The notes under the pieces: generated by a model | What the model was told of the DNA's origin: nothing | The model's database searches: none | What the model saw: only the letters and a program-made list of their open reading frames with translations | Shown here: in pieces, positions 3,379-29,564 of the stretch | How the letters are laid out: every line of letters begins with the position of its first letter | Numbering within the stretch: the first letter of the stretch is position 1 | Source: Candidatus Diapherotrites archaeon ADurb.Bin253 | Lineage (GTDB): Archaea > Nanobdellota > Nanobdellia > Pacearchaeales > GW2011-AR1 | Assembly (NCBI GenBank): GCA_002069705.1 | Contig: MWBV01000006.1 | Coordinates: forward strand, 1-32,553 | Reading direction: 5' to 3' | DNA: 32,553 nt | Program-made: the position numbers and the translations under genes

Positions 3379-4158
3379 CTAAGGGAGTAATTTTATTACA
3401 ATTCCTAAAAGAATAAAGAATATTATTAATTGAATTAATATCCAGACATTTCTAACAGATTTATTTTCTAAATAAACAGGAGAAAGGATTTCATCAACGC
3501 AGGAAGTTGTTTCAATTGGTTTATTGTAAGAATAAGAACATCTGTTCTCATCAATACATTTTCTTGTTGTTGTTCCATGAACACACTCTCCCCAAGAAGA
3601 GCATTTCCAGTTTGGTTCACAATATTGGACAAAGTGATTCTTTTTTATTACTTTTTCACCATATCCTTCTTCTTTTTCAATAAAACAGACTTTAGAACAT
3701 CCATCAAAATTCTTTGTGTTTCCATCATCACACTCTTCTCCTTCCTCTATTATTCCATTTCCACAATTCTCATTTAAATTACATTCTCCAACAGGACAAC
3801 TATAACAATACTTATTCTCTGAGGTTGGACACTCTCCACAATCTTCAGGACAAGTTGCACAGTTTTCTCCTTCAGATGGACTACATATACCATCTCCACA
3901 GAATTTAATTATAGGACAATCCCCACAATCACAAGGACAATTAAATACTGTTTCATAATTATTACATATCATATCTCCACAGAATTCAATTTTACAAAGA
4001 GCAGAACATCCATCTCCATCAATATTATTTCCATCATCACATTCTTCTCCTTCCTCCAATATCCCATTTCCACATACAGAAGTAGCATAAACACTTCCTA
4101 ATACCATAAGTAGTGCAAATGCAAAAAATATGAGTATATTTTCCCTTTTTCTCACCAT
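3379..4158 (-). CDS. Secreted Cys-rich membrane-anchored protein with ECDDGN repeats and a TSP1-like module
   Basis: 259 aa. A signal peptide (residues 1-25) is followed by Cys-rich repeats of the Myxococcus disulfide-repeat/DUF4215 type, with two EECDDGN copies. Other CGD/CxxC units (FCGDGICSPSEGENC) lie between them. Residues about 178-220 (EPNWKCSSWGECVHGTTTRKC) match a thrombospondin type 1-like module. A C-terminal membrane helix (about 235-257) with a short tail anchors it. These modules are known from extracellular, disulfide-stabilised proteins. A TATA-like TTTTAAG about 25 bp upstream suggests its own near-leaderless promoter. It follows the 1345-aa surface protein and repeats modules seen in the 619-aa and 1158-aa proteins, so it probably belongs to the same envelope set. 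An adhesin or surface-binding role is inference. Confidence 0.85.
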   Translation of the reverse strand: MVRKRENILIFFAFALLMVLGSVYATSVCGNGILEEGEECDDGNNIDGDGCSALCKIEFCGDMICNNYETVFNCPCDCGDCPIIKFCGDGICSPSEGENCATCPEDCGECPTSENKYCYSCPVGECNLNENCGNGIIEEGEECDDGNTKNFDGCSKVCFIEKEEGYGEKVIKKNHFVQYCEPNWKCSSWGECVHGTTTRKCIDENRCSYSYNKPIETTSCVDEILSPVYLENKSVRNVWILIQLIIFFILLGIVIKLLP

Positions 4159-4226
4159 AAAATTCTATAGTTAAAACCACTTAAAAGCATATGGGTTATA
4201 AAGAAGATAAGTTATTTTACTTGTAT

Positions 4227-7200: not shown

Positions 7201-8264
7201 TCCTGCACAAATCTTGAATCATTTATTTCATAGGTTATTTCATCTTCTTCAGCATCATATGCGATTATGTAAACTTCTACAATCTCACCCTCATGAACAG
7301 AAATTTTAGATATTGGCTCTATTATAGGAGCATCATTAACGCAATTCATATAAGGGTCACTTGAACCAGGATTAATCAATGGATTATCATCATCACAATC
7401 ATCTCCTCCAGCAATAACAGCAATAAATCCATCTCCATCTAAATCATTTAAATCACTTCCATCACAATCTTGGTCAATTCCATCATACGGTATTTCTTCT
7501 GCATCTGGATTTATATTTGGGTCTTTATCATTGCAATCTTCATCACTGAAAAAACCATCTCCATCTCTATCTTCTCCACCCATAGCCCACTCAATTGAAT
7601 TGTAAATTATTTCTTCTGCATCTGGAGTCAATAAATTTGTTTCTGTAAACCCAATAAACACTCCTCTTGCATTTGAAACCTGTCCTCCTCTTAATGCAGA
7701 ACCATTATTTATTGCTGCAACAATAGCTCCATTAAAATAATTTGGTTTATCTGTAACCATTACTTCAAGTCCTGGTGCAGGATAAAATCTTGAAATATAT
7801 TTTAATCTGTAAGAAATCATAACATTATCTTTATAATAAGGTATGAAAGCATCAGGAACATTCTGCGTTATTAAACTTTCAGAATCTCTAACATATATTT
7901 CACTTGGGTAATTTGAAGCTTTTGTTGAAACACTTCTCCCTGTCCATCCCCAGGTTCCAAGATGATAACTGTTAAATATAACTGAATTTTTTTGATTAAC
8001 AGGAATAAGTGAAGGATTGTTGAAATTTCCCTCTCCTACAATTATGACACTATACTTTGAAAAATCAATTAATGATAAATCATTCTGATAAATAACATCA
8101 TAAGTATAATTTGCATTATTCAATATATTAATTATTGCAGGATCAGTATAGCTTGCACCTCTGGTTATGTATGCAATATCTTTTGCTACAACACTTCCTA
8201 TTGTTACGAACATTAAGAATACTACTACGAGGCTTAAGAGGACTTTGTGTTTTCTATTTTTCAT
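4227..8264 (-). CDS. Giant multidomain cell-surface protein (MopE-like, cadherin-like, lamin-tail and CARDB-like domains)
   Basis: 1345 aa. Visible parts in order: signal peptide (1-27); an alpha/beta domain (about 28-228) reminiscent of ThuA/glutamine-amidotransferase-like folds; two DxDGDG..CND/CDG metal-binding repeats (about 232-300, MopE type); four cadherin/Ig-like repeats marked by NDAPIIE and [14 protein letters not shown] (about 310-670); a lamin-tail-like domain starting [17 protein letters not shown] (about 675-775). Further Ig-like and putative-Ig repeats follow ([17 protein letters not shown]), then a CARDB-like domain ([21 protein letters not shown]), a Ser/Thr-rich stalk and a C-terminal membrane helix ending KNPY. 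It starts 2 nt after the stop of the 203-aa gene, so the two are co-transcribed. Architecture points to a large calcium-stabilised adhesin or envelope protein. Domain limits are approximate. Confidence 0.88.
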
Positions 8265-8266
8265 TC

Positions 8267-8878
8267 TTATTTTCTTCTTACTTTTCTTTTACTTTTCTTC
8301 CTCTTTTTACCCCAAATGTAAATTAATATTAACAATACTACAAATAATATTAGTGTGTTTATTCCAAATATTTTGACTAATTTTGAAGGATTTGTCTGTT
8401 CCCTAGGGTTTTCTGGATTTGTTTCTTCCTGACTCTCTTTAGGTTCTTCTTTTTCTTTATATCCTTGGTCTTTCTTTGCAATAACTATAATTGTTGAAGA
8501 TAATACAACTCCTGCTTCCTTTCCTTCAACGGGTTTAAAGAAAACATTAACTCTCCCTTCATAGGTTCCTTCTTTTTTTACTTTTATTGTTATCTCAGCT
8601 TTTTTACTCTCCCCTGCTTCTAAAATAAATGTTTCATCAACTAATTCAATAAATTTAGAAGCATTTGAATCTAATCTAAGAGTTATATTTACAGGAATAC
8701 TATTAACATTGTTTACAAGAATTGTTTTTGGTATAACTGTGTTTGTCCAACCATTAACTTCCGGATAGAGTACCATCCTTCCATTTCCAATAGAGCCAGT
8801 AACTGCAGAAATCATTGTAATTCCTGTCATCAAAACTACAATTGCAAATGCAAACACCAGTGTTTTTTTATTTCTCAT
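8267..8878 (-). CDS. Membrane-anchored surface protein with an Ig-like domain
   Basis: 203 aa. A signal peptide (about 1-25) leads into a beta-rich domain (about 35-135, [16 protein letters not shown].. and [13 protein letters not shown]..) like the NPCBM-associated/COG1470-type Ig folds of archaeal surface proteins. A Glu/Pro/Asn-rich linker, one membrane helix (about 170-189) and a very basic tail ([13 protein letters not shown]) follow. It is the first gene of an operon with the 1345-aa protein and probably helps present or anchor it. A TATA box (TTTAAATA) 23 nt upstream indicates a nearly leaderless mRNA, and just upstream of that is an element shared with the 353-aa gene's promoter. Confidence 0.8.
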
Positions 8879-8901
8879 GTGACACTTTAGAATGAATACA
8901 C

Positions 8902-8947
8902 TATTTAAAGATTGTTGTCGTCGAGAAACTTATTATTTGTTATTACT
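8902..8947 (-). promoter_or_regulatory. Promoter with an upstream element shared with the 353-aa surface gene
   Basis: The TATA box TTTAAATA is at 8902-8909. Immediately upstream is ATTGTTGTCGTCGAGAAA (plus strand 8911-8928), identical to 17811-17828. A looser shared tract continues to about 8947 (TATTTGTTATTACTT against TTTTGTTGTTACTT). The TATA abuts the element in both promoters, as expected for a BRE plus an activator site. Confidence 0.65.
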
Positions 8948-8961
8948 TTTTTTTAATGAAT

Positions 8962-9840
8962 TTATCTTTTTTTCTTTTTTCTTGCAGATTCTAAGTCCTT
9001 TTTAGGGCTCTCTTTAACACTATTCTTCATCTCAAAGTAAAAGTTCTTTAAGAATAATATAAACATAGGTGTTACAACCAATGCAATTACAAAATCATAA
9101 ATTAAATTCAATGTAAGTGAACCTAAAAGCAATCCTAAAGAGATATTAGATGAGGAAATTGTTTTTAGTAAAACTGGAATACCTATTGGAAGTTTAATAA
9201 TTGATAATATTAGCACAAAAGCCAAAGTTACAAGTCCAAAAAGTATCATATATCCAAAAGTTTTCCACCATCTTTTTTTCACTATCCTTTTACTTTCTTT
9301 AAGAGAATCTATTATCTTCTGTTTTTTCTCCAAGAAAACATATGCTGCAAAAACCCAGTAAACTGCAAAAATAACTCCAGGTATTATAAGTAAAAGAAAC
9401 AAAAGCATAATAAATATAGTTACTACAATAGTAAATCCGAAGTATCTCCAGTAATTACTTTTTCCATTTTCAAGTATTTCTTTGTAAGAGAATTTATCTT
9501 TTTTAAGTGAAACTGCTATTAAACCCACACCTACAAATAAAGCTAAGAAAAAATAAACAATATTCAAACTAATTGAAACAATATCATAATAAATAGGTAA
9601 CTTTATGGTTCCTTGATTATATTGTCCAATCAAAAGAGGATTAGACATTATATTGAAAATTCTTTCATCTGTAATCAATGTAATTGAATTAAATAAAAAA
9701 GCAAGAACAAGTATTATTCCAAGAAAAATTAAAACAAGTTTTAATATTGGTTTGAAATTTCTTTTATATTCATTAACACTTTTATCAAACAAACTTCCGA
9801 ATGTGAACTTATCTTCACTCCCTCTCTTTTGTTTTTCCAT
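8962..9840 (-). CDS. Multi-pass integral membrane protein
   Basis: About 292 aa from the ATG at 9840. A TTG at 9855 is in frame, but the TATA box at 9865-9872 would place the transcript start at about the ATG, so I prefer 9840. The protein has a basic N-terminal tail (MEKQKRGSEDKFTFGSLFDKSVNEYKRNFK). About six hydrophobic helices follow, paired around a basic loop (KKQKIIDSLKESKRIVKKRWWKTFGY), and it ends in a Lys/Arg-rich cytoplasmic tail. The FxxxFxxxxxxYKRNF start and the helix pattern resemble the membrane domain of glycerophosphodiester phosphodiesterase-like and related archaeal proteins, but no catalytic domain is present. It sits inside the surface-protein locus with its own promoter. 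Its function is unknown. Confidence 0.75.
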   Translation of the reverse strand: MEKQKRGSEDKFTFGSLFDKSVNEYKRNFKPILKLVLIFLGIILVLAFLFNSITLITDERIFNIMSNPLLIGQYNQGTIKLPIYYDIVSISLNIVYFFLALFVGVGLIAVSLKKDKFSYKEILENGKSNYWRYFGFTIVVTIFIMLLFLLLIIPGVIFAVYWVFAAYVFLEKKQKIIDSLKESKRIVKKRWWKTFGYMILFGLVTLAFVLILSIIKLPIGIPVLLKTISSSNISLGLLLGSLTLNLIYDFVIALVVTPMFILFLKNFYFEMKNSVKESPKKDLESARKKKKR

Positions 9841-9864
9841 ATGTAAAAATAACAAAATATGTTT

Positions 9865-9872
9865 ATTTAAAT
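9865..9872 (-). promoter_or_regulatory. TATA box of the multi-pass membrane protein gene
   Basis: ATTTAAAT lies 25-32 bp upstream of the ATG at 9840. This spacing predicts a leaderless transcript and argues against the upstream TTG start. Confidence 0.5.
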
Positions 9873-9908
9873 ATTACTATTTTGATAAAACTAAAAATTC
9901 TTTCTTAA

Positions 9909-11768
9909 TTATATAGCTTCACCCCAGAAGTAAATCTGTCCAGTATCAAAATCACCATTACATGGTTCTGGAAGATTAAGTCTGAATATCAAAGTCATTT
10001 CTGCTCCAGGAGAAAGGATATTTGAAAAATAATATCCATAGTTATTATTTGCCTGTATTATTTCATTTCTGTTATAGAATCTGAAAGGGTCATTGAAACC
10101 TGTTCCATAATTTAAAGAACAGTATCCCTCATCATCACAAGTTCTTCCAACTTCCATATCTTGTTTTGTAGAGTAAGCTCCATTTGTTGCATAGTATGCG
10201 AAATTGCTTAAATCTAATTTGTTTGTAGTTGGACATTTAGCTCCTGAGCTTGATGAATCATAAAAGTCTGTTCCAGATATAAACATATCAAGTAAAACTC
10301 CTGAACCATATTCAGCATCATTTCCTATTATAACTCTTCTTGAATATGAACTTGTTCCAGGTCTTACTTCATCAAATTCAACTTCTCCATCAATTGAAAG
10401 CTGTATAACAGGATTAAACCACCAATATTCAACTTCATCCATTGTTCCAACAACATCATCTAAATCAATAGCTTCAATTAATACTTCAGAGTCACCTTGC
10501 ATTGATTCAAATGTTTCAACAGTTAAAACACACTCATAATAAGCCATTGTATTAGGATTGAATTTTGTTAGTTTCTCTTCTAATATTCTTGCATTACATG
10601 AAGGGTCAATCATATCAGGTGTTGGATTTTCTTCTTGAGTTCCTTCTTCTGGAGTTTGTGTTTCATTTTCTTTATCTTTAAGTCCAATTGAACCTCCACC
10701 AAAATTAAACAAAGAAATTCCACTAAAATCAATATCATTATTGCTTGGTGTGTATTGATAATTATTCATTCTTCTGCAATTAGCTTCAATATTTCCGTCT
10801 ACAGTAATATAAACATCTTTAACCTTGTCAATACCATTCTTGTCCATTACAAGAACTCTCCATTTGATTTGTTCTCCTTCAAAAGCATAATTGTTTATTC
10901 TTTCAACTAAAGGAGTTCCATGCATAGATATTCTTCCTGGTTCAGTTGCATCATCATAAACTACTCTACTGTCACACTGCCATACTAATGGTTCAAAATC
11001 TTCAACAATAACTTCAAATGGTTTCTTACATTCATTTGTACACCTATCATTGTTTATTCTGTTCCCATCATCACATCTTTCATACATTGTATTTAATATT
11101 CCATCTCCACAGTATTCCCCAAGAACAGTTATTATTTCACAATCACTTGAACAATAAGTGCATGAAGAACCATAATCAGCAGAACATTTTATTCCATTGT
11201 TTTCACCTTCATCACATTGTTCTCCTAAATCAATCTTTCCATTTCCACAGATTTTTTCTTCAGGACATAAATCAAATGCACAATTCAATGCAACATTTCT
11301 TGAAACATATGAACCATCTGCACATCTTTTCTTGTCAGTTGGACATGAAACAACTCCTCCATCTCCCCCCTCTTCCTCTTTGTCTGAAATATCACCATAA
11401 ACATAAACATCTTTGAAGTATATTGCAGGGCTACCAGTTAATGTTATACTTGTAACTTTTAGATTTATGTTTGGATTAATGAAACTCATTTTCAACCATT
11501 GGTTATAAACTGCATTTTGTAATGGAGCAGTATATTTTGTTCCACTCTCATAATTAAAAGTTAAAGTTGCATATTGATAATATCCTGCTCCTCTAACCAT
11601 TACTGTTGCATATCCTACATTAGAATCTGGGATATCATAATCATGTGAAGTATCATCATATTGTGCATTATTACTATAAATTAGAGATGCACTTGTTAAT
11701 GCAAACATACCTACAAGCATAATTAAGAATGCAAGCACCTTCAATGTTTTTGTTGTTTTGTTTATCAT
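9909..11768 (-). CDS. Secreted Cys-rich envelope protein, paralogue 1 (shared C-terminal domain)
   Basis: 619 aa. A signal peptide (1-27) precedes a beta-rich, Tyr-rich N-terminal domain (about 28-130), a Gly/Glu linker, and Cys-rich repeats at about 140-248 (CGNGKIDLGEQCDEGENNG, CGDGILNTMYERCDDGNRIN). From about residue 253 (VEDFEPLVWQCDSRVVYDD) to the end it carries the domain shared with the 1158-aa and 353-aa neighbours, interrupted by an extra Asn/Gly/Glu-rich insert at about 325-385. The shared domain has conserved Cys in WQC, EANC, CNARIL, YEC, GAKC and EPC, and ends in IYFWGEAI with nothing after it. It follows the 1158-aa gene by 17 nt, so the two are co-transcribed. It lacks a C-terminal membrane helix, so it must be held by protein contacts or lipidation. 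An envelope or S-layer-associated role is inferred. Confidence 0.85.
   Translation of the reverse strand: MINKTTKTLKVLAFLIMLVGMFALTSASLIYSNNAQYDDTSHDYDIPDSNVGYATVMVRGAGYYQYATLTFNYESGTKYTAPLQNAVYNQWLKMSFINPNINLKVTSITLTGSPAIYFKDVYVYGDISDKEEEGGDGGVVSCPTDKKRCADGSYVSRNVALNCAFDLCPEEKICGNGKIDLGEQCDEGENNGIKCSADYGSSCTYCSSDCEIITVLGEYCGDGILNTMYERCDDGNRINNDRCTNECKKPFEVIVEDFEPLVWQCDSRVVYDDATEPGRISMHGTPLVERINNYAFEGEQIKWRVLVMDKNGIDKVKDVYITVDGNIEANCRRMNNYQYTPSNNDIDFSGISLFNFGGGSIGLKDKENETQTPEEGTQEENPTPDMIDPSCNARILEEKLTKFNPNTMAYYECVLTVETFESMQGDSEVLIEAIDLDDVVGTMDEVEYWWFNPVIQLSIDGEVEFDEVRPGTSSYSRRVIIGNDAEYGSGVLLDMFISGTDFYDSSSSGAKCPTTNKLDLSNFAYYATNGAYSTKQDMEVGRTCDDEGYCSLNYGTGFNDPFRFYNRNEIIQANNNYGYYFSNILSPGAEMTLIFRLNLPEPCNGDFDTGQIYFWGEAI
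10237..10304. repeat. 68-bp segment identical to 16889-16956 (paralogue 1 / paralogue 3)
   Basis: The stretch beginning TTAGCTCCTGAGCTTGATGA is identical, in the same orientation, at 10237-10304 and 16889-16956 (offset 6652). It codes for the core around SSSSGAKC in both paralogues. The 3' ends of the two genes are also nearly identical in DNA, while much of the rest has diverged. This fits recent gene conversion or selection on this core. Confidence 0.85.
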
Positions 11769-11785
11769 TTTGTTTTCCTTTTTGT

Positions 11786-14700
11786 TTAAACAGCTTCAGC
11801 CCAGAAATAAATATGTCCTGAGTTGAAGTTTCCTATGCAAGGTTCAGGAACATTTACTCTGAATGTAAGTGTCATGTCTGCTCCAGGAGAAAGTAAGTTA
11901 CCAGTGTAATAAGGACCCACTTTTTGCACCTGTAGTATTTCATTCCTATTATAGAATTTATAAGGATTATGGAACTCGAAACCATAGTTTACACCACAAT
12001 ATCCCTCGTCGTCACAAGCTCTTCCAATTTCCATATCATCGACGGTAGAATATGCTCCGTTGACAGCATAGTATGCAATATTTTTCAAACTTAATTGATT
12101 TGTAGTTGGACATTTAGCTCCTGAACTTGATGAATCATAGAAATTTGTTCCAGATACAAATACATCTAATAAAACTCCTGAGTCTCTGTCTGCATCATTA
12201 GTTAATGTTACAGGTATAGAATATTCCATTGTTCCCGGTCTTAATTGACTGAACATTACTCCTCCTTGAACATTCAATGAAACAACAGGATTAAGGAACC
12301 ACACTTCTGTTTCATCCATCTGTCCTCTCTCTCCATTCAAATCTTCAGCTTCAACTGTTATTTCAGATGGTCCATACATTGAATCAGAGGTTTCAATAGT
12401 TAAAACACATTCATAATAAGCCATTGTGCTAGGATTGAAACTTGTTAATTTCTCTTCCAATATTCTTGCATTACATGTAGGGTCCATTTGGTTTCCATAC
12501 ATTCTTCTACAATTAGCTTCAATACTTCCATCTACAGTAACATAAACATCTTTAACCTTATCAATACCATTCTTGTCCATTACAAGAACTTTCCATTTGA
12601 TTTGTTCTCCTTCAAAAGCATAATTGTTCATTCTCTCAATCATCTCTTCACCATCATAAGTTATTCTTCCAGGTCTTGTAGCATCATCATACACTACCCT
12701 ACTGTCACACTGCCATACTATTGGAACAAAGTCCTCAATTGTTATATTTGGAGTGCACACTCCATTTGGACATTCAAATCTACATGTTTTTGAGCATCCA
12801 TCTCCATTAACATTATTTCCGTCATCACAATATTCATTTGGTTGTTTTATTCCATCTCCACAATAAGGTCCTCTTAGAGTAATTCTTTTACAATTTAATG
12901 AACAATAATTACAATATTTCCCATATGAAGGTTTACAAACCTGCCCATTTAATGCACCATCATCACATTCTTCTCCTTCATCAACTACTCCATCACCACA
13001 GTAATGATCTTCTTCTTCAATTTGACAATTTGCTGAACATCCATCTCCATCGATATTATTTCCATCATCGCATTCTTCATGAGGTCCTTGAACCACTCCA
13101 TCGCCACAATAAGGTCCTGTTAAAGTGATTAGTTTACAGTTAGCTGAGCAGTATTCACAAGATTTACCGTATAATGGATTACAGGGCTTTCCATTCAATA
13201 AACTTCCATAATCACATTCTTCTGTTATTTGGTTTATGATTCCATCTCCACATCTAGGTAATACATGCTCTATTTTACAATCACTTGAACATCCATCTCC
13301 ATCATCAGTGTTACCATCATCACACTCTTCACCTTCCTGAATTATTCCATCTCCGCATACAGGTTCTTCTTCACATATCAAATAAAAGCTTCTGCTTGCT
13401 TTATTATCAGAATCATCATCTTCAATACAAATAGGATTGTGTTGACTTACAACATCTAAAGATAAAGTATATCTTGTATCACACTCTAATCCATTTGTAT
13501 TTAATATCAATGTCTTTGAGTGGAATTTACTTATAAGATAATTATAATCTGCAAGAACATTTGAACCAACCTTAAAAATCATATGTGCATTGTTTTTTGT
13601 ATTTGGTATATTATTATCTACATAATATCTTACCTTATACATTCCTTTTGGAATTGTTGGAGTTACCTGAGAAATCCAGGTTCCATTCTCATATCCTAAT
13701 GCAATACCTGTTCCATAAGAATTCAAATAAGAATATCTAACTGATAAATCTTCTATACATTCTTCTTGTTCATCTTCAATCTTACATTCACTTGAACAAC
13801 CATCTCCATTATCATTATTTCCATCATCACATTCTTCATAAGGTTCCTGAACTATTCCATCTCCACAATAGCCGTCACTTAGAGTTATTTCTTTACATTC
13901 AGAGGAACAATAAGTACATGTTCCATCATAGGGTGCTATACAAACTTCTCCATTATCTTCTCCTAAATCACACTCTTCTGTTATTTGATTCACAATTCCA
14001 TCACCACAATAGGGTTTTTCTTCACAATTAATTTTTATTGTTCTGTAAGCATAATTATCACATGCGTTATCCTCAATACATATTCCATTACTCTCACTCA
14101 CAACTAACACAGTTATATTATGTAAAGAATCACATTCTAATTTTGAAGTATCTAAAATTAAAGTCTTGAAATGATAGTTCTTTATATCCTGATAATAACT
14201 TGCAAGTACACTTGGACCTAATCTTACTGTTATGCTTGCATTATTACTTTCTTCTTCGTGATTATCAACATAATATCTTATCTTGTGTATCCCTTTACTT
14301 AAAAGAGCAGGATTTCCTGAAACCCAATTATAAGTATCACTGCTGTTTATTGCAATTCCTGTTCCAAAAGAACTTGCATAATTTTTCCTTATAGAAATAT
14401 TGTATATACAATCTTCAAATTCAATTTTACAATCTGCAGAACATCCATCTCCATCAATATTATTTCCATCGTCGCATTCTTCTCCTTCATCAACTACGCC
14501 ATCACCACAGTAATGTTCCTCTTCTTCAATTTTACAATCTGCAGAACATCCGTCTCCATCAATATTATTTCCATCATCACATTCTTCATTTGATTGTTTT
14601 ATTCCATCACCACAATATTCTATTTTACAAGTATTAGAACATCCATCATTGTTATTCAAATTACCATCATCACATTCTTCACCTTCTTCTAGTATACCAT

Positions 14701-15262
14701 TTCCACATATTGGTGGACAATCAAAATCTACAAATAATTTATGAGTATTGCTTGTTTTCCATGATTCCTGATCACTCCATGCTTGGAAATAATTAGGTAT
14801 TTCAAAATCTCCACATTCTTCAGGTTCTAATACTTTAACTCTAATTAAGATTCTTCCAACTTCTCCTGGAGAAACAACATGAGCATTCCAAGTTAAAGTA
14901 TTTGTTAATCCATTAAATCCTACAATACCGTGATTAGAATGTCCAAAGCTTATTCCTTGAGCATCTCTATCATTGATTAAGTGTGTTGTGTAATTAAGAT
15001 ATTGTAAATTTTTATCCAAGATATCTCTTATCTCAACTCCTCCACCAGTGCATGCAACATTTCCTTTATTTTCATATTTCAAAGTATAAAGAACAATATC
15101 TCCTGGTTTAACATTTGCTTTATCAGCACATTTAACTATTTCAAGATTGCATCCAGAATTAGCTGCACTTATAAAACTTAAGATAAATATTATTGCAAAT
15201 ATGCTAACAATAGTTAAGACTAGTGTTTTCCCTGCTTTTTTTGTTTTCTCTTTTTGCACCAT
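11786..15262 (-). CDS. Large secreted Cys-rich envelope protein, paralogue 2 (shared C-terminal domain)
   Basis: 1158 aa. Order: signal peptide (1-33); a DUF11-like domain (about 35-180, VKPGDIVLYTLKYENKGN); Cys-rich repeats; a first copy of a beta domain (about 288-415, SIRKNYASSFGTGIAI); Cys-rich repeats; a second copy (about 505-630, SVRYSYLNSYGTGIALG); a longer run of Cys-rich repeats (about 635-845); and the C-terminal domain shared with the 619-aa and 353-aa proteins (about 855-1158). I count seven CDDGN units plus three variants (ECDLG, ECDYG, ECDDGA), so it is probably a disulfide-stiffened stalk. A Shine-Dalgarno GAGGTGA sits 16 nt from this ATG but only 4 nt from an out-of-frame ATG 11 nt upstream, so the start region is unusual. 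It lies 44 nt after the 382-aa gene and 17 nt before paralogue 1, probably in one operon. Confidence 0.87.
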   Translation of the reverse strand: MVQKEKTKKAGKTLVLTIVSIFAIIFILSFISAANSGCNLEIVKCADKANVKPGDIVLYTLKYENKGNVACTGGGVEIRDILDKNLQYLNYTTHLINDRDAQGISFGHSNHGIVGFNGLTNTLTWNAHVVSPGEVGRILIRVKVLEPEECGDFEIPNYFQAWSDQESWKTSNTHKLFVDFDCPPICGNGILEEGEECDDGNLNNNDGCSNTCKIEYCGDGIKQSNEECDDGNNIDGDGCSADCKIEEEEHYCGDGVVDEGEECDDGNNIDGDGCSADCKIEFEDCIYNISIRKNYASSFGTGIAINSSDTYNWVSGNPALLSKGIHKIRYYVDNHEEESNNASITVRLGPSVLASYYQDIKNYHFKTLILDTSKLECDSLHNITVLVVSESNGICIEDNACDNYAYRTIKINCEEKPYCGDGIVNQITEECDLGEDNGEVCIAPYDGTCTYCSSECKEITLSDGYCGDGIVQEPYEECDDGNNDNGDGCSSECKIEDEQEECIEDLSVRYSYLNSYGTGIALGYENGTWISQVTPTIPKGMYKVRYYVDNNIPNTKNNAHMIFKVGSNVLADYNYLISKFHSKTLILNTNGLECDTRYTLSLDVVSQHNPICIEDDDSDNKASRSFYLICEEEPVCGDGIIQEGEECDDGNTDDGDGCSSDCKIEHVLPRCGDGIINQITEECDYGSLLNGKPCNPLYGKSCEYCSANCKLITLTGPYCGDGVVQGPHEECDDGNNIDGDGCSANCQIEEEDHYCGDGVVDEGEECDDGALNGQVCKPSYGKYCNYCSLNCKRITLRGPYCGDGIKQPNEYCDDGNNVNGDGCSKTCRFECPNGVCTPNITIEDFVPIVWQCDSRVVYDDATRPGRITYDGEEMIERMNNYAFEGEQIKWKVLVMDKNGIDKVKDVYVTVDGSIEANCRRMYGNQMDPTCNARILEEKLTSFNPSTMAYYECVLTIETSDSMYGPSEITVEAEDLNGERGQMDETEVWFLNPVVSLNVQGGVMFSQLRPGTMEYSIPVTLTNDADRDSGVLLDVFVSGTNFYDSSSSGAKCPTTNQLSLKNIAYYAVNGAYSTVDDMEIGRACDDEGYCGVNYGFEFHNPYKFYNRNEILQVQKVGPYYTGNLLSPGADMTLTFRVNVPEPCIGNFNSGHIYFWAEAV
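12780..14710. repeat. Dispersed coding repeats encoding ECDDGN..DGDGCS units
   Basis: Short direct repeats resembling CCATCTCCATCAATATTATT recur at irregular intervals, for example near 12798, 13038, 13302, 13801, 14446 and 14550. They all fall in one reading frame of the 1158-aa gene and encode its Cys-rich units. A similar unit occurs near 4011 in the 259-aa gene. They are protein-coding repeats, and possible sites of unit gain and loss by recombination. Confidence 0.8.
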
Positions 15263-22303: not shown

Positions 22304-22624
22304 TTAATTATATTCTCTTCTAGTTAATTCTTTAATATATTCTATAATCTGTTCTCTTAAAGGGTGTTCTCTCTCAATAAAAACAGCTCCAATAGGATTA
22401 TTGAATCTATCTACATCTCTTCTAGATAAAACTACTGCATATGGGATAGAATTTTGTTTTAATTGACGTGTTAAAAAAATCCTATATCCTTCTCCAGAAT
22501 ATGCTTTTAATCTACACTCTTTATTTAAATATTCTTTAATCTTATTGTAGAATTTGCTCTTATCAAATATTATTTCATCTTCAAATCTGTTTGACATTTT
22601 TCCTGTTAAATCTTTCTTTGCCAT
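22304..22624 (-). CDS. Small basic protein, unknown (ten-gene operon)
   Basis: 106 aa, soluble, mixed alpha/beta, with a charged N-terminus (MAKKDLTGKMSNRFEDEI) and a C-terminal helix (LREQIIEYIKELTRREYN). The middle has strand-like segments (YRIFLTRQ, PYAVVLSRRDVDRF, IGAVFIEREH) rich in Arg. It follows the 143-aa gene after 6 nt and is followed by family B copy 3 after 1 nt. I do not recognise it. A nucleic-acid-binding role is possible from charge alone but is not supported by a motif. Confidence 0.6.
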   Translation of the reverse strand: MAKKDLTGKMSNRFEDEIIFDKSKFYNKIKEYLNKECRLKAYSGEGYRIFLTRQLKQNSIPYAVVLSRRDVDRFNNPIGAVFIEREHPLREQIIEYIKELTRREYN

Positions 22625-22630
22625 ATTATT

Positions 22631-23062
22631 TTAAATAAGTTCTTTTTTAGTTAAATAATCTTCAAGTAGTTTTGATGTTTTTAGACCGTAATTTCTGATT
22701 CCTCTCCCTTCTTTTTGATTATGCCTATATAATCTTACTAAATGGATGTCTCTAATATCGTCTCTATAAATAATTTTGTCTAAAACAAGTCCTTTCTTGA
22801 ACAGTATATGATTAACCTCCATAGCAGCATTACACATTCTAGAGATTGTATTTTTGTTTCCTTTATCAAGATTTTTTAAGAGTTCAAAATCAACTTTCTC
22901 ATTTAATTCCCCTTCTTTTGAAGAATATCCTTCAAGACCTTCTCTTAAATACTCTCCAAGCTTATCATAATTAATCAATTCATTATGGTAATTGACTTTA
23001 AGGAAATTGACCTGCCTTGCAACAATCTCATTTTTTACTCTATCTGTTAATTCTTTTGCCAT
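22631..23062 (-). CDS. Small helical protein, unknown (ten-gene operon)
   Basis: 143 aa, soluble, basic, mostly helical. It starts MAKELTDRVKNEIVARQ, much like the next gene's MAKKDLTGKMSN. A segment RMCNAAMEVNHILFKKG holds its only Cys. The C-terminal third is Arg/His rich (RDDIRDIHLVRLYRHNQKEGRG). It follows the 97-aa gene by 1 nt. No family recognised. Confidence 0.6.
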   Translation of the reverse strand: MAKELTDRVKNEIVARQVNFLKVNYHNELINYDKLGEYLREGLEGYSSKEGELNEKVDFELLKNLDKGNKNTISRMCNAAMEVNHILFKKGLVLDKIIYRDDIRDIHLVRLYRHNQKEGRGIRNYGLKTSKLLEDYLTKKELI

Positions 23063-23063
23063 A

Positions 23064-23357
23064 TTACATAAGTTCTAGATAAGATATTTTATGTATTAAT
23101 GGAAGCATTTTATGTCCTTCAATTGCTTCTCTCAAACCTAATTGATTATTAATACTGGATATTCCTGGAGTTGCTTCAGTATATAATAATATTGGTGTTC
23201 CATGTTCACTTTCAACTATTCCTTTGTAATAAACCATCTGAGTGTATGTTTCATTATCTGGTAAAGGATGTTTATCTGGTCCTATAGAAGTGTTTAATGT
23301 TAATTCAATTCTCTGTCCTAGCTTTAAATCCAAAGCTTCAAATTCTTCTAGTTTCAT
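23064..23357 (-). CDS. Small beta-rich protein, unknown (ten-gene operon)
   Basis: 97 aa, soluble. LKLGQRIELTLNTSIGPDKH and a later strand TPILLYTEATPGISS suggest a compact beta fold. The opening layout (LDLKLGQRIELTLN) loosely resembles that of the 125-aa protein encoded at 31069 (IKPLDEIELNSYSL), and both continue with a strand containing TE and Pro. The resemblance is too weak to call homology. It starts 2 nt after family A copy 3. Confidence 0.6.
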   Translation of the reverse strand: MKLEEFEALDLKLGQRIELTLNTSIGPDKHPLPDNETYTQMVYYKGIVESEHGTPILLYTEATPGISSINNQLGLREAIEGHKMLPLIHKISYLELM

Positions 23358-23359
23358 TT

Positions 23360-23617
23360 TTACTCCTGAACTTCTTTTTCTAGGTTATTCTTTTTAGTAT
23401 CTTCTTTTATTTTTGCTTCTTCAAGAGCCTTTCTAATTTCTCTAGCTCCCACATAAATATTTCCTGATGCTATAGCTCCAAGTGTTACATATGATGCTAT
23501 AGCTCCTTTTTTAGTGAGTGCTTTATTGTGGTTTGTGTTATATGCACAATATGTAATACCACCTAATGCTACAACTCCTAATGAACCCAATATAAGATAG
23601 TCCTTTATTTTTTTCAT
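23360..23617 (-). CDS. Family A small two-helix membrane protein, copy 3
   Basis: 85 aa. A short basic N-terminus leads into a first membrane helix (DYLILGSLGVVALGGITYCA), a short loop (YNTNHNKALTKKG), a second hydrophobic segment (IASYVTLGAIASGNIYVG) and a charged helical tail ending KKNNLEKEVQE. Copies at 23981-24250 and 24253-24525 share DYIVMGSLGI, ALGG, TK.G and the KKNNLEKE(I/V)Q tail. The three are closest in the first helix and the last ten residues, which suggests that both parts matter. It follows a family B gene by 1 nt. Confidence 0.7.
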   Translation of the reverse strand: MKKIKDYLILGSLGVVALGGITYCAYNTNHNKALTKKGAIASYVTLGAIASGNIYVGAREIRKALEEAKIKEDTKKNNLEKEVQE

Positions 23618-23618
23618 T

Positions 23619-23978
23619 TTAACTTAATTTATCTAAATAATTTTGAAGATTTCTGTAAATCATATTCTTCTTTATATGAAATATACTTCTTTTTGTTTTA
23701 TCTATTTCTCTCATTCCAACAAGAATATAGAACAAGTCAGTTGCTTTTTGTTTTTTTGGACTTTCTGGAAGAGATTCAAAAAATCTAAATCCATTACTAT
23801 ACATCCTGCTATCAAAATTATAATCATAAGGTTCTCTATCAAGAGTAGGTATAACTTCATTAATTTTTTTCAGTTTTTCTAAATCTTGAATTAAATTTTC
23901 TGCTTTCTCAAAATATTCTTCTGGAAGTTTGATACTCTTACCTGGAAGAGTCTTTAATTTGTATTCAACTGTTTTCAT
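23619..23978 (-). CDS. Family B small soluble protein, copy 2
   Basis: 119 aa. It opens MKTVEYKLKTLPGKSIKLPE, is helical in the middle, and carries ESPKKQKATDLFYILVGMRE, which aligns with AESPRKKAFIDHIYVRLGEYY in copy 1. It ends NLQNYLDKLS. No membrane helix or signal peptide. Neighbours on both sides are family A membrane proteins with 1-2 nt gaps, so an A-B pairing appears twice in the operon and suggests that A and B proteins work together. Confidence 0.7.
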   Translation of the reverse strand: MKTVEYKLKTLPGKSIKLPEEYFEKAENLIQDLEKLKKINEVIPTLDREPYDYNFDSRMYSNGFRFFESLPESPKKQKATDLFYILVGMREIDKTKRSIFHIKKNMIYRNLQNYLDKLS

Positions 23979-23980
23979 TT

Positions 23981-24250
23981 TTAATCTTGAATTTCTTTTT
24001 CTAGGTTATTCTTTTTAGTGTCTTTTTTTGGTTTTGTTGCTCCAAAAATATCTTCGGCTGCAGTAACTCTCCAATAACAAGCTCCCAATATTGCAGCTCC
24101 AATTGCCACACCCCCAACTTCAATTCCTGTTTTAGTAATTTTTTTATTGTAAATTGTATCGTATAAAGCATATCCAGCTCCACCTAATGCTGCAATTCCT
24201 AATGAACCCATTACAATATAATCTGCTATTTTTCTATTTATTTTTTTCAT
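23981..24250 (-). CDS. Family A small two-helix membrane protein, copy 2
   Basis: 89 aa. Helix 1 is DYIVMGSLGIAALGGAGYAL, then a loop with KKITKTG, helix 2 (VGGVAIGAAILGACYW), and the conserved tail DTKKNNLEKEIQD. It is adjacent to copy 1, 2 nt away, a likely tandem duplicate that has diverged most in helix 2. See copy 3 for the family pattern. Confidence 0.7.
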   Translation of the reverse strand: MKKINRKIADYIVMGSLGIAALGGAGYALYDTIYNKKITKTGIEVGGVAIGAAILGACYWRVTAAEDIFGATKPKKDTKKNNLEKEIQD

Positions 24251-24252
24251 TT

Positions 24253-24525
24253 TTACTCCTGAATTTCTTTTTCTAGATTATTCTTTTGAATATCTTCTTT
24301 TAGTTTTGTTGTTTCTTTAAGAGATTCTTCAATTAATTTAGACCCTCTATAACAAATTCCTAATGCTGTAGCTCCAAGTGCTACATAAGCTGCTGAACTT
24401 CCTTCTTTAGTAATCGTTTTATTGTGAATTGTGTTATATGCACAATATGTAATACCTCCTAACGCTACAATTCCTAGCGAACCCATTACAATATAATCTG
24501 ATATATTTTTCTTTATTTTTTTCAT
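24253..24525 (-). CDS. Family A small two-helix membrane protein, copy 1
   Basis: 90 aa. Helix 1 is DYIVMGSLGIVALGGITYCA, the loop is YNTIHNKTITKEG, helix 2 is AAYVALGATALGICY, and the charged tail ends KNNLEKEIQE. It is nearer to copy 3 in its helices (ALGGITYCAYNT is identical) than to its direct neighbour copy 2, so the duplications did not simply spread outward. It follows family B copy 1 by 1 nt. Confidence 0.7.
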   Translation of the reverse strand: MKKIKKNISDYIVMGSLGIVALGGITYCAYNTIHNKTITKEGSSAAYVALGATALGICYRGSKLIEESLKETTKLKEDIQKNNLEKEIQE

Positions 24526-24526
24526 T

Positions 24527-24901
24527 TTAATTAAATCCGTTATTATATAGTCTTAAACTTAATAAATCAATTTCTTGCACGAGTTTAGGATATTTTTCTG
24601 TTATCCTTTTTCCAGAAGAATAATATTCACCAAGTCTAACATAAATATGGTCTATGAATGCCTTTTTTCTAGGACTTTCTGCTTTTGCAGACATAATATA
24701 ATTTGCTCTTCTCAAAAGAGAACTCCCATTTTCTGCAATATGCCTAAGAGCATCATGTTCATTGATTCTTTCAATTAAATCCTCTTTACTATTTGATTTT
24801 TTTATTTTTTCAATAAAATCATTTCCTACTTCAACAGCTTCTTTTGGAAGGTCGATAATCTTTCTTGGAAATGATAGTGATTTGTATTTTAAAGTTTCCA
24901 T
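24527..24901 (-). CDS. Family B small soluble protein, copy 1
   Basis: 124 aa. The N-terminus METLKYKSLSFPRKIIDLPK is a diverged form of the family opening, and AESPRKKAFIDHIYVRLGEYY is the second conserved block. The rest is helical and charged. It follows the 131-aa gene by 1 nt and precedes family A copy 1 by 1 nt. Confidence 0.7.
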   Translation of the reverse strand: METLKYKSLSFPRKIIDLPKEAVEVGNDFIEKIKKSNSKEDLIERINEHDALRHIAENGSSLLRRANYIMSAKAESPRKKAFIDHIYVRLGEYYSSGKRITEKYPKLVQEIDLLSLRLYNNGFN

Positions 24902-24902
24902 T

Positions 24903-25298
24903 TTATCTCCTTATTATCTCCAATGCTTCTTTTTCTCTTTCATATTTTTCATCAATTCTTTTCTTAATTTCAGCTTTACGTTCTGCATCTCTTGTAGTTC
25001 CAATCTTATCAAGTAAATTACTATATCTTTTTCCTGCTTCTTTGTAAACAGGAGAATTATAATAAGTATATGTATCTCCATTAACTTTAACTTTTCTTAA
25101 ATCTTTTCCAAAAAAAGTTTGATAATAAACTATTTTATCTGATTCTTTATATTCCACAACTTTTCCTGTTCTTGTTCTGTATTTGACCCTGTTTCCATCA
25201 ATATCATATTTTGAATATGGGCTTCCAATACCTGTAACTAAGATTAGCCCAGTTGCCAGTGCAATTCCTCCTATTTTGGTTATTAATCTTTTGTCCAT
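24903..25298 (-). CDS. Membrane-anchored protein, first gene of the ten-gene operon
   Basis: 131 aa. A hydrophobic N-terminal segment (about 7-25, TKIGGIALATGLILVTGIG) is an anchor or signal peptide. A beta-rich middle follows, with repeated Lys/Tyr strands (YDIDGNRVKYRTRTGKVVEY, KIVYYQTFFGKDLRKVKVNG, DTYTYYNSP), and the C-terminus is a charged coiled helix (RDAERKAEIKKRIDEKYERE). A TATA box (TTTAAAAA, 25319-25326) lies 21-28 bp upstream, and the 20-bp element is at 25341-25360, so this is the operon head. A 59-bp internal piece is repeated exactly at 26399-26457. It is likely membrane-bound with an exposed beta domain. Function unknown. Confidence 0.65.
   Translation of the reverse strand: MDKRLITKIGGIALATGLILVTGIGSPYSKYDIDGNRVKYRTRTGKVVEYKESDKIVYYQTFFGKDLRKVKVNGDTYTYYNSPVYKEAGKRYSNLLDKIGTTRDAERKAEIKKRIDEKYEREKEALEIIRR
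25077..25135. repeat. 59-bp perfect direct repeat, copy 1
   Basis: Identical to 26399-26457 (offset 1322). It lies inside the 131-aa gene and encodes IVYYQTFFGKDLRKVKVNG. The two copies bracket the epimerase gene. Confidence 0.95.
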
Positions 25299-26579: not shown

Positions 26580-27122
26580 ATGATAAACATCAAAGAAACT
26601 AAGAAAGAATTCATTCTTGAATTATTAAATAAAGATATTTATAAAGTTCTTGATTTAGGATGTGGAGAAATGCTTCTTTCAAAAGCTTTTCTTAAAAATA
26701 ATTCATTTGTAAAAGGAATTGATATCAAAGAACCTTTGGAAATTCCAGAGGGTGCAGTTTTTGTGAAAGGAAATTTCTTTCAAGAAGAATTTGAAAAAGA
26801 TTATGATTTGATTATTGCTTCACTTATACTTCATCTCACAAAAAAAGAATTTACACCTAAACTTATCCAGAAAATACAAGATTCAACAGCTAAAAACGGA
26901 TATAATTTTTTAATCTTACTCTCCAATAAAGATTCTCTTTCAACAGAAGAAAGATTCTATCCTTCTATGAGTGAAATAATGGAATTTTATCCTGGTTCTG
27001 AGTGGAAACTCATCAAAAGCTTGGAAGATGAAACAGAACCAGAACAACATGGCAATGCACAAACCCCAGATAACATTCCCCACACTCATCACTTGATTTT
27101 TGCAATATTTCAGAAACAATAG
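26580..27122 (+). CDS. Class I SAM-dependent methyltransferase
   Basis: 180 aa. Motif I VLDLGCGE is at residues 23-30; the acidic end of strand 2 is VKGIDIKEP; motif IV region is YDLIIASLILHLTKKE. It is short, one Rossmann-like domain only, with no recognisable substrate domain. The tail carries HGNAQTPDNIPHTHHLIFA. It precedes the metalloprotease gene by 45 nt on the same strand and is probably co-transcribed. A TATA-like ATTTATTTATTA lies within 40 bp upstream. Substrate unknown; a small molecule or a modified peptide are both possible. Confidence 0.8.
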   Translation: MINIKETKKEFILELLNKDIYKVLDLGCGEMLLSKAFLKNNSFVKGIDIKEPLEIPEGAVFVKGNFFQEEFEKDYDLIIASLILHLTKKEFTPKLIQKIQDSTAKNGYNFLILLSNKDSLSTEERFYPSMSEIMEFYPGSEWKLIKSLEDETEPEQHGNAQTPDNIPHTHHLIFAIFQKQ

Positions 27123-27167: not shown

Positions 27168-27917
27168 ATGAAATTAATAGTATTACCTAATAACTCATTT
27201 AATGAATCTAAAAAAGAAGATTTAAATAAGATAATATTTTTTGCAGAAAAACTGCTTGAAAAAAATGATATCCCTCTACCAGAAAAAATTTATTTTTATA
27301 ATTCATTTGAAGAATTTATAGAAAAGGTAATCCCAGAAGTAATAGGTTATGGTTTCAGTAAAGAGATTTCAAAGGAGATAATAAAATGTGCTTTAAATAA
27401 CGGGACCTACGGAACATTAAATTACCAGGAAAACTCAATAATAGAAATGAATTTTAATCCATTTAACAAAGGAGAATATAGTGCTGATGATTTTCTGGAA
27501 CTGTTAATTCATGAATCACTGCATTTGCAATTATCTAATCATATGAATAAAGATATTAATTCTATTAAGTTTAAATTCAGTAAAGGAAAGTTCTTAGGAA
27601 ATCCTAGAATTATCCAGCTTGATGAAGGTTATGCAGAATTTATGACTAAAAAAATTCTGGAAGACCCCGAATTTTATGAAATAAATAAAATAATTAAAGA
27701 AATAAAAATACCTTTCCACAACTTGGAATCACCTTCCTACAAGAAAAATATTGATTATCTAGATATAAATGAATTTGATAGTGCATTTGAAACATTGTTG
27801 CTTTCAAATAGAGATAAGGGGTTTAAACTTTTTAGAAGTGTTTTCAAGGAAAAAAAAGGATATACCTCTAAACAGATTTTAGATTTTGCAGCTAAAGAAC
27901 TAAAAGAAATTATTTGA
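27168..27917 (+). CDS. Putative zinc metallopeptidase (HExxH)
   Basis: 249 aa. LLIHESLHLQL gives the zinc motif H115-E116-x2-H119, and LDEGYAEFMTKKI (about 151-163) gives a likely third ligand of the gluzincin type. There is no signal peptide, so it acts in the cytoplasm unless exported otherwise. The N-terminal part is alpha/beta without a known domain. It ends convergently with the radical SAM gene, the coding ends overlapping by 18 bp. Because it neighbours a candidate RiPP operon it could be the leader peptidase, but it is on the opposite strand and this is inference. A general protease of the DUF2268/DUF4157-like type is equally possible. Confidence 0.75.
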   Translation: MKLIVLPNNSFNESKKEDLNKIIFFAEKLLEKNDIPLPEKIYFYNSFEEFIEKVIPEVIGYGFSKEISKEIIKCALNNGTYGTLNYQENSIIEMNFNPFNKGEYSADDFLELLIHESLHLQLSNHMNKDINSIKFKFSKGKFLGNPRIIQLDEGYAEFMTKKILEDPEFYEINKIIKEIKIPFHNLESPSYKKNIDYLDINEFDSAFETLLLSNRDKGFKLFRSVFKEKKGYTSKQILDFAAKELKEII

Positions 27918-29309
27918 ATGCATAAAAGTTATATCTCTAATATGAAAATCTTTTTTCTTTGTTTTATTTTCTATACTTTTATTTAACAACCAATTTAATG
28001 TCATCTCTGTATGCACACAAAATGGTTTATCTCTAGCATATATATTTTCTTTTGAAATTGTTTCAGCATTAAATGGGCAGCCTCCGCCACATATTCCTAT
28101 TGCAGGACAATATACACACTCTTTCATATTCAAAGGATATCTTTCTGTCCAGTATTTTATAACAGGGCTTTTTTCCAATTCGTCTACTTTAAATTTGTTT
28201 ATGTTGCCTATTATTGAACCCTCATTGCAAAGATAAGCTTCACAAGTGCCAATATTACCATTAGGAAAAAATACGAGCTGATTTCCGACACCGCCACAGT
28301 CCTTAAATCTTGGGATTCCATTAAATGCAATTGCTTTTCTTTGTATTCTATCTTCATAAACTCCTTTTTTACTGGCTTCTTCAGAAGCATCTAAGAGATT
28401 TTTATTTAAAGTAGTTAAATCAACTAAAGGTATATTTGAATATCTTGCATTTAATAATATATTAAATCCAATGCTTTTTGCTCCTAATTCAATAAAATGA
28501 TTTACGTTTTCTTTTAAAGAACTTATATTGTGTCGGCTTATTGTACATGAAATTCCAAAAGGTATCTTTTCCTTGTTTAAAAGCTGGATTCCTTTTATTA
28601 TTTTGTTATAAGTCCCCTTATCATCTTGGGTTACTCTCATAGTGTCATTTATTTCTTTTTTTCCGTCTAAAGAAACAGACACTCCAACTTTAAATTTTTT
28701 AATTGCATCTATAATTTCTTTATCAAATAAAGTCCCATTAGTAGTTATCTGAAAATCAGGTATAATTTTGTTTTTCTTGCATATATCCTGAATTTTTCCA
28801 AGACTTTTTATAAAAAATTCTTTTGAAATCAAAGGCTCAGAGCCATAATAAATAAAGGTTATCTTTTTTTTATTTGGAGATTTTGATTTTTGATATTCAA
28901 TTAAATTATCTAAGTATTTTATTAAATTTTCAAAAGTTTCATTACTCATATTTATATCTTTGAAATTAGGTTCAACACTTCCTTCAACATAACAATACTT
29001 GCATTTAAGGTTGCATTTTGTATTAAAAAGTAAATAGATTATTTCCAAATCAAATTTGTTTAATTTATAATTTTCTTTGATATAATCAACAAATTTCTTT
29101 TCTGAATATGAATCTGGAACTAAAATATGGCTTTTTTGTAATGTTTTTATGTTTTCTTTGAATTTTTTGTTTTTCAATGAATCAATCAGCTCTTTGAATT
29201 CAATTTCCTTGAAAAAGAATGATTCATTGGTTATAGAATGCCTTATAATATAATACAAATTATTCTTACTAACACATTCATAAATACGAGAAAATTTAGA
29301 GAATCTCAT
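27900..29309 (-). CDS. Radical SAM/SPASM peptide-modifying enzyme
   Basis: 469 aa. The N-terminal domain (about 1-90) has no membrane segment and may be a peptide-binding region. The radical SAM core begins with CNLKCKYC (Cys99, 103, 106), which binds the SAM-cleaving 4Fe-4S cluster, with YYGSEP (about 154-159) in place of GGEP and SVSLDG at 211-216. A SPASM domain (about 335-435) has Cys338, 356, 361, 398, 401, 407, 411 and 431 in the CxxCx5Cx3C pattern for auxiliary clusters. This architecture is known from RiPP maturases and anaerobic sulfatase-maturating enzymes. No sulfatase is seen in the window, but a 44-codon ORF lies 30 nt upstream on the same strand and is its likely peptide substrate. 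Confidence 0.9.
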   Translation of the reverse strand: MRFSKFSRIYECVSKNNLYYIIRHSITNESFFFKEIEFKELIDSLKNKKFKENIKTLQKSHILVPDSYSEKKFVDYIKENYKLNKFDLEIIYLLFNTKCNLKCKYCYVEGSVEPNFKDINMSNETFENLIKYLDNLIEYQKSKSPNKKKITFIYYGSEPLISKEFFIKSLGKIQDICKKNKIIPDFQITTNGTLFDKEIIDAIKKFKVGVSVSLDGKKEINDTMRVTQDDKGTYNKIIKGIQLLNKEKIPFGISCTISRHNISSLKENVNHFIELGAKSIGFNILLNARYSNIPLVDLTTLNKNLLDASEEASKKGVYEDRIQRKAIAFNGIPRFKDCGGVGNQLVFFPNGNIGTCEAYLCNEGSIIGNINKFKVDELEKSPVIKYWTERYPLNMKECVYCPAIGICGGGCPFNAETISKENIYARDKPFCVHTEMTLNWLLNKSIENKTKKKDFHIRDITFMHSNNFF

Positions 29310-29339
29310 CTAAGGTAGTGTAAATTACAATCCTTTTAC

Positions 29340-29474
29340 TTATTTATAACTAAAATATTCGGTGCTTGGGAGTTTAACTATGTAATCTGGTTCTGAGCCT
29401 TTATGACACCAACCTTTACACCTAAACTCACCTTCCGGAGGAAGAGTTTTAGCTACTATTTCTAGTTTTTCCAT
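29340..29474 (-). CDS. 44-aa putative RiPP precursor peptide
   Basis: ATG at 29472-29474, stop at 29340-29342. The peptide opens MEKLEIVAKTLPPEGEFR, then holds CKGWCHKG (Cys19 and Cys23 around Trp22), and ends in an aromatic-rich tail (Tyr31, Tyr40, Phe41, Tyr43). A short charged leader followed by a core with Cys, Trp, Tyr and Ser/Thr is the form of substrates for radical SAM/SPASM enzymes that build thioether or carbon-carbon crosslinks. A very good promoter lies in front (TTTATAAATT at 29493-29502, after GGAAAAG), predicting a near-leaderless mRNA that starts with this ORF and reads into the enzyme gene 30 nt later. The coding call rests on context and promoter; it could be a free small protein. 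Confidence 0.65.
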   Translation of the reverse strand: MEKLEIVAKTLPPEGEFRCKGWCHKGSEPDYIVKLPSTEYFSYK

Positions 29475-29492
29475 AATTTTACATATCTCAGA

Positions 29493-29509
29493 AATTTATA
29501 AACTTTTCC
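29493..29509 (-). promoter_or_regulatory. Promoter of the peptide/radical SAM operon
   Basis: On the minus strand GGAAAAG (BRE-like) is followed by TTTATAAATT, 19-28 bp upstream of the peptide ATG. It is among the best archaeal promoters in the window. Confidence 0.65.
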
Positions 29510-29544
29510 TCAAAATCAGATTCTAGTGTAAAAATACATTTAAG

Positions 29545-29564
29545 TACTACTCTATAATTACACT
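29545..29564. promoter_or_regulatory. Copy 4 of the 20-bp shared element
   Basis: TACTACTCTATAATTACACT, 18/20 to consensus, about 43 bp upstream of the TATA box of the peptide/radical SAM operon. Copies 4 and 5 also share a preceding TTAAG. Confidence 0.65.

Follow-up and report, generated by a model that had tools for sequence, protein, structure and literature searches.

A very probable three-gene radical SAM RiPP cassette with a repeated RCxGWCH core in DPANN archaea

Does the 44-codon open reading frame that lies directly ahead of a radical SAM/SPASM gene in a small archaeal genome encode the substrate of that enzyme, and what would the enzyme make of it? The locus is part of a window of 32,553 nucleotides (the whole stretch of DNA analysed, from contig MWBV01000006.1 of Candidatus Diapherotrites archaeon ADurb.Bin253), the source genome being a DPANN MAG of 95 contigs and 0.88 Mb. 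Minimal genomes and a life attached to hosts are generally assumed of DPANN archaea. A sequence-only reading had placed the open reading frame 30 nt before the gene for the 469-residue enzyme, on the same strand, and had given it a promoter of its own; position and gap are as described (Table 1), and a TATA-like TTTATAAA, accompanied by a GAAAAG element, does lie 20 nt before the ATG. To judge from its sequence, this promoter is arranged as in leaderless archaeal transcription units, and AT-rich TATA-like boxes stand at similar positions before the homologous peptide genes of the two closest relatives described below.

Table 1. Positions of the features discussed, in coordinates of the window
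Feature	Position	Strand	Details
Putative precursor peptide gene, 44 aa, MEKLEIVAKTLPPEGEFRCKGWCHKGSEPDYIVKLPSTEYFSYK	29340..29474	-	leader 1-17, core RCKGWCH 18-24, C-terminal tail 25-44
Core motif RCKGWCH, repeat unit	29403..29423	-	1 copy in window peptide
BRE/TATA-like element GGAAAAG TTTATAAA	29495..29509	-	TATA-like part 29495-29502; 20 nt before ATG
Radical SAM/SPASM peptide maturase (predicted), 469 aa	27900..29309	-	
N-terminal RRE-like domain, residues 1-80, beta-beta-beta-alpha-alpha-alpha	29070..29309	-	AF2 model, pLDDT 90 or more
Radical SAM motif CxxxCxxC (C99, C103, C106)	28992..29015	-	conserved
SPASM cysteines C338, C356, C398, C401, C407, C411, C431	28017..28298	-	two auxiliary clusters
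Convergent HExxH protein, 249 aa, putative zinc peptidase	27168..27917	+	HESLH 115-119, DEGYAEF 152-158
HExxH motif of putative peptidase	27510..27524	+	

A search of 200 genomes of the order with the enzyme sequence gave as the closest enzymes, identical over their full length at 70% and 62% of positions, those of Candidatus Pacearchaeota RS_7_11 (JAGLOA010000001.1) and Nanoarchaeota GH57 (JAQICZ010000021.1), both of the same family as the source genome. Had the pairing of peptide and enzyme been fortuitous, such relatives might have lacked the small open reading frame, yet both carry a homologous peptide directly upstream - MEKLEAKAEEFVGKMELRCKGWCHDKYEMRCKGWCHDGTPKMYDTDFPNVEYFN in RS_7_11, with a gap of 36 nt, and a peptide of 107 residues in GH57, with a gap of 7 nt - and both peptides keep the CxxxC spacing and the C-terminal Tyr-Phe. 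All three begin with a MEKLEAKAE-like leader and end in a common tail (EYF or KYF). Between these lies the heptapeptide RCxGWCH, present once in the window peptide, twice in RS_7_11 and three times in GH57; x is K, L or Q, and Gly-Trp-Cys-His is invariant in 6/6 cores, so that within this trio neither Trp nor His varies any more than Cys does.

Since the alignment of the window peptide to the other two scores better than all 2000 shuffles, the open reading frame is more than a chance occurrence. The similarity does not depend on the core: with the cores deleted, that of the window peptide was reached by 0/5000 shuffles for RS_7_11 and 5/5000 for GH57, and that between RS_7_11 and GH57 by 6/5000. 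Conservation extends to codons: comparing the six fixed core codons between genomes gives 25 differences that are synonymous and 0 that are non-synonymous; by this sequence measure, the core is under purifying selection. At the DNA level the RCxGWCH pattern has exactly six sites in the 200 genomes of the order, all of them in these peptides (a reversed control pattern has 1 match), and the 378 class genomes yield one more, antisense to an unrelated 620-aa gene; our class- and phylum-wide searches covered a sample of genomes. A peptide in which the core is repeated while leader and tail stay fixed has, as far as sequence can indicate, the look of a multi-core precursor, and the repetition marks RCxGWCH as the modified unit.

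What of the enzyme itself? Pfam assigns it a Radical_SAM domain above cut-off and a SPASM domain below cut-off, and conservation covers the radical SAM cysteines and the complete set of seven SPASM ligands. Its AF2 model is confident (pLDDT 91.9, pTM 0.90) and most closely resembles, among PDB folds, CteB (5WHY/5WGG), TigE, anSMEcpe, ChlB and SuiB, with alignments to CteB and SuiB running over the full length. The N-terminal extension implied on first reading takes the form, in this model, of an RRE-like domain, for which recognition of the leader is predicted. With a conserved peptide at both close relatives and such a domain on the enzyme, there is a strong case, built from sequence and model, that the 44-aa peptide is the substrate; we infer this relationship, as the sequence-only reading did. 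Only the enzymes of the RCxGWCH trio have two further cysteines, C12 and C361; C361 follows the SPASM ligand C356 by five residues and might act in catalysis. Among the viral contigs that gave matches there were no close relatives, identity being 20-32%.

On the opposite strand, a gene for an HExxH protein converges on the maturase gene, and the two overlap tail to tail by 18 bp in 3/3 loci (27900-27917 in the window, 2893-2910 in locus L021 and 1495-1512 in locus L022). The HExxH protein is kept in RS_7_11 (64%) and GH57 (51%) with both HExxH and DEGYAEF conserved, and a profile of its family finds only the same three genomes among 180. A zinc metallopeptidase of the gluzincin type would combine HExxH and a downstream Glu with a zincin fold; for this protein, Pfam and NCBIfam gave no family, and the AF2 model is too poor for classification (pLDDT 56), with no solved fold matched confidently. 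On the grounds of its motif and strict co-occurrence, we assign it, with moderate confidence, a role as peptide-processing protease. Two elements thus go beyond the earlier reading: RCxGWCH is the unit that repeats, and the HExxH gene converging on the maturase gene is a member of the cassette.

Genes further out are unrelated among the three loci, and the cassette is absent from the two same-genus genomes (incomplete MAGs, 82-87%), in which the neighbour genes did not lead to an empty site for comparison; the three genes therefore behave as an accessory module. Complete cassettes were found in only three genomes, all drafts. The methyltransferase gene at 26580-27122 was considered as a further member and rejected, being missing from RS_7_11 and GH57; a methyltransferase also follows the more distant enzymes of genomes G045 and G416, and that of G045 is only 31% alike to the one in the window. 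The G045 locus also encodes an HExxH protein, not detectably related to that of the window: as a candidate homologue it was rejected, only the HExxH helix aligning, with a probability of 0.1%.

Taken together, these observations make it very probable that the locus is a three-gene radical SAM RiPP cassette consisting of a precursor, a cross-linking maturase and a trimming HExxH protein. The RRE-like domain would bind the leader of the precursor, and perhaps also its conserved tail, and the enzyme would then cross-link every RCxGWCH unit by radical chemistry; a thioether involving a core cysteine, of the kind that CteB/PapB-type maturases form, is the most likely bond. The HExxH protein would probably then cut off leader and tail and, in precursors with two or three cores, part these from one another.

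Which known systems does the cassette resemble? The best-scoring family for the enzyme is FibroRumin (maturase TIGR04136, target TIGR04135) at 200 bits against a cut-off of 400, followed by the PapA/PapB ranthipeptides (NF047865) at 165 against 340, and it scores 109 against 425 with the SCIFF maturase model (TIGR03974), to which CteB belongs; such bit scores, like the E-value of 1.5e-19 that makes CteB the best solved relative by sequence too, say nothing on chemistry. Falling below all three cut-offs, the enzyme is a variant of the radical SAM/SPASM RiPP kind that belongs to no named family. In FibroRumin systems, as here, one or more short Cys-containing peptides lie directly upstream of the maturase. 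The targets are rich in CxCxC and lack RCxGWCH, unlike the window peptide, which has no match to TIGR04135 at E 0.1; the RS_7_11 and GH57 peptides have none at E 1. With CteB the enzyme shares its fold, the N-terminal RRE-like domain and a SPASM domain with two auxiliary clusters, at about 21% identity, whereas the SCIFF precursor has six Cys in forty-five residues and the window peptide two. In CX3D units PapB joins a Cys to the residue at position +4, and it accepts other spacings too (PMC9413430). The cysteines of CxGWC are likewise four apart, but neither Asp nor Glu stands at the acceptor position. The window peptide thus differs from FibroRumin, PapB and SCIFF precursors alike, in keeping with the remark on first reading that it fits no known precursor class.

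Beyond the trio, the nearest enzymes with intact upstream DNA are those of G045, G180 and G416 (33-36% identity); a closer one, in G005 (46%), begins at a contig end and its upstream DNA is lost. Each of the three is preceded, by a few to 25 nt, by a different Cys-rich peptide. The FibroRumin maturase of the Campylobacter sp. RM16187 plasmid p16187MP2, 32% identical over 94% of the enzyme, has two Cys-rich peptides upstream, both of which match TIGR04135; the gene next to it is UvrA/ABC-like, in contrast to the HExxH gene of the window cassette. In a maximum-likelihood tree the trio forms one clade (100/100) and the G045, G180, G416 and Campylobacter enzymes are nearest by path, although the fork joining them to the trio is weak (79/77). 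We considered whether the peptides of this other branch are homologues of the window peptide and rejected the idea, as their similarity does not rise above that of shuffles; an xY(F/W/I) ending is common to both. That the nearest enzymes pair with other Cys-rich peptides indicates that Cys is the shared substrate feature. The FibroRumin-like archaeal loci are L002 1134-4113 (G045), L099 1270-3559 (G416) and L023 187-3036 (G180). In G180, peptide and maturase are followed by genes for a HAD phosphatase and a kinase-like protein; the enzyme of G491 (L104 787-2679) has a HAD-like domain fused at its C-terminus where G180 has a separate HAD gene, and no Cys-rich peptide lies upstream of it.

What bond is formed in RCxGWCH? 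As PapB tolerates more than one spacing, the spacing of the cysteines does not by itself decide the bond type. We lean slightly towards a Cys thioether, with weak to moderate confidence: Cys alone is common to this peptide and those paired with the nearest enzymes, and thioethers are what the nearest relative of solved structure makes. The main competitor is a carbon-carbon link of the cyclophane type on the invariant Trp, for instance a three-residue W-C-H ring, with the cysteines left to form a disulfide or bind metal. In favour of such a ring, Gly-Trp-Cys-His is completely invariant, and the enzyme scores weakly with the cyclophane-forming maturases YhhB (121 bits) and DynA (142 bits); on the other hand, the substrates of the nearest enzymes share Cys and not Trp-Cys-His, and it is CteB, a thioether-former, that is the best solved relative both by sequence and by fold. 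We accordingly regard the cyclophane as possible but distinctly the less probable of the two bonds. Heme c-type binding by CxxxCH was also set aside, a signal peptide not being apparent.

The nature of the product can be questioned independently of the bond. Instead of a secreted bioactive compound, the peptide, once trimmed by the HExxH protein, could yield a small cofactor of redox or metal type - similar to PQQ or mycofactocin, or a metallophore. It is in line with such a function that a dedicated protease-like gene is conserved while no exporter or immunity gene is conserved across the three loci, and the core offers three potential metal ligands. Against this, the core varies in copy number from 1 to 3 and in its variable residue, the distribution is very patchy, and no co-conserved dehydrogenase or user enzyme adjoins the cassette in the three loci, which makes a cofactor unlikely. 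The patchy, context-independent distribution is more suggestive of an accessory trait than of a housekeeping cofactor.

Lower still in probability is the view that the small protein is a zinc-binding regulator or partner with C-x3-C-H sites, co-transcribed by chance, and that the enzyme acts on another protein. Its Cys/His pairs could indeed bind metal, and the peptide has a Pfam Torus domain match, at chance level (E 0.16); a regulator would, however, account neither for the expansion of a 7-residue core between conserved leader and tail nor for the RRE-like domain on the enzyme, and the peptide occupies the position of the annotated target peptides of FibroRumin systems. We consider this very unlikely.

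How often does a short Cys-containing frame precede a gene by accident? Counting frames 30-120 aa long that contain two or more Cys, on the same strand and just upstream, 13/130 large genes in these loci have one; 5/13 are maturases, leaving about 8/125 unrelated large genes (~6%). The 44-codon frame is short and such coincidences do occur, but with a homologous peptide in two other genera, its core codons under purifying selection and its leader and tail retained, the conservation data rule out a chance open frame, the probability of which is virtually nil.

What does the cassette add to what is known of DPANN peptides? The sequence-only reading held that RiPPs are little documented in small-genome symbiotic archaea. 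This stands only in part: antiSMASH surveys have already counted RiPP clusters in DPANN (PMC12153355), including, in the accessible part of one survey, ranthi- and sactipeptide types across the group (PMC12144867), and a MAG survey lists Nanoarchaeota clusters (PMC9902471), but the open-access literature searched holds no characterised RiPP from DPANN. As far as that accessible part goes, the archaeal radical SAM RiPP clusters predicted in PMC12144867 are survey counts. Neither RCxGWCH precursors nor the three-gene cassette are described in the open-access papers searched. The evidence suggests that these modified peptides form a new family, in an archaeal group without characterised ones.

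A more far-reaching proposal would be a new DPANN RiPP class in which multi-core precursors with leader and follower give RCxGWCH rings of unprecedented Cys/Trp/His connectivity, excised by a new family of HExxH peptidases and used against or with host or rival cells; as a whole we find this doubtful, and the action of a product on host or rival cells is speculation. The cassette is small, three genes with natural 1-, 2- and 3-core variants, and DPANN products are therefore directly testable by heterologous expression. RCxGWCH as a new precursor motif and the HExxH protein as a candidate new peptidase family are both usable for genome mining.

Other peptides beside radical SAM/SPASM genes were seen in passing. 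In G141 (L033 3465-3931), another radical SAM/SPASM gene is followed directly, on its own strand, by two paralogous peptides of 69 and 81 residues that have IMGH...NPHIRRAIKQRGGFLF in common; this is probably a second, unrelated radical SAM RiPP type in the same archaeal family. In G004 (L016), a 68-aa peptide ending CDPCDACGPDACASDDGCFLD lies 17 nt upstream of a radical SAM/SPASM gene at 994-2064 on the minus strand, which scores highest with the model for the ACGX system (183 bits against a cut-off of 400).

Elsewhere in the window, positions 3379-15262 encode several large, secreted-looking proteins with repeated Cys-rich CGDGxxxxGEECDDGN units, and several paralogous large proteins there have a common EDFEPIVWQCDSRVVYDDAT region. 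Positions 22304-25298, which may be mobile or plasmid-like, hold a run of small genes with repeated paralog pairs, one kind reading MKKIxxxIxDYIVMGSLGIVALGG... and the other MKTVEYKLxxxPGKxIKLPEE....
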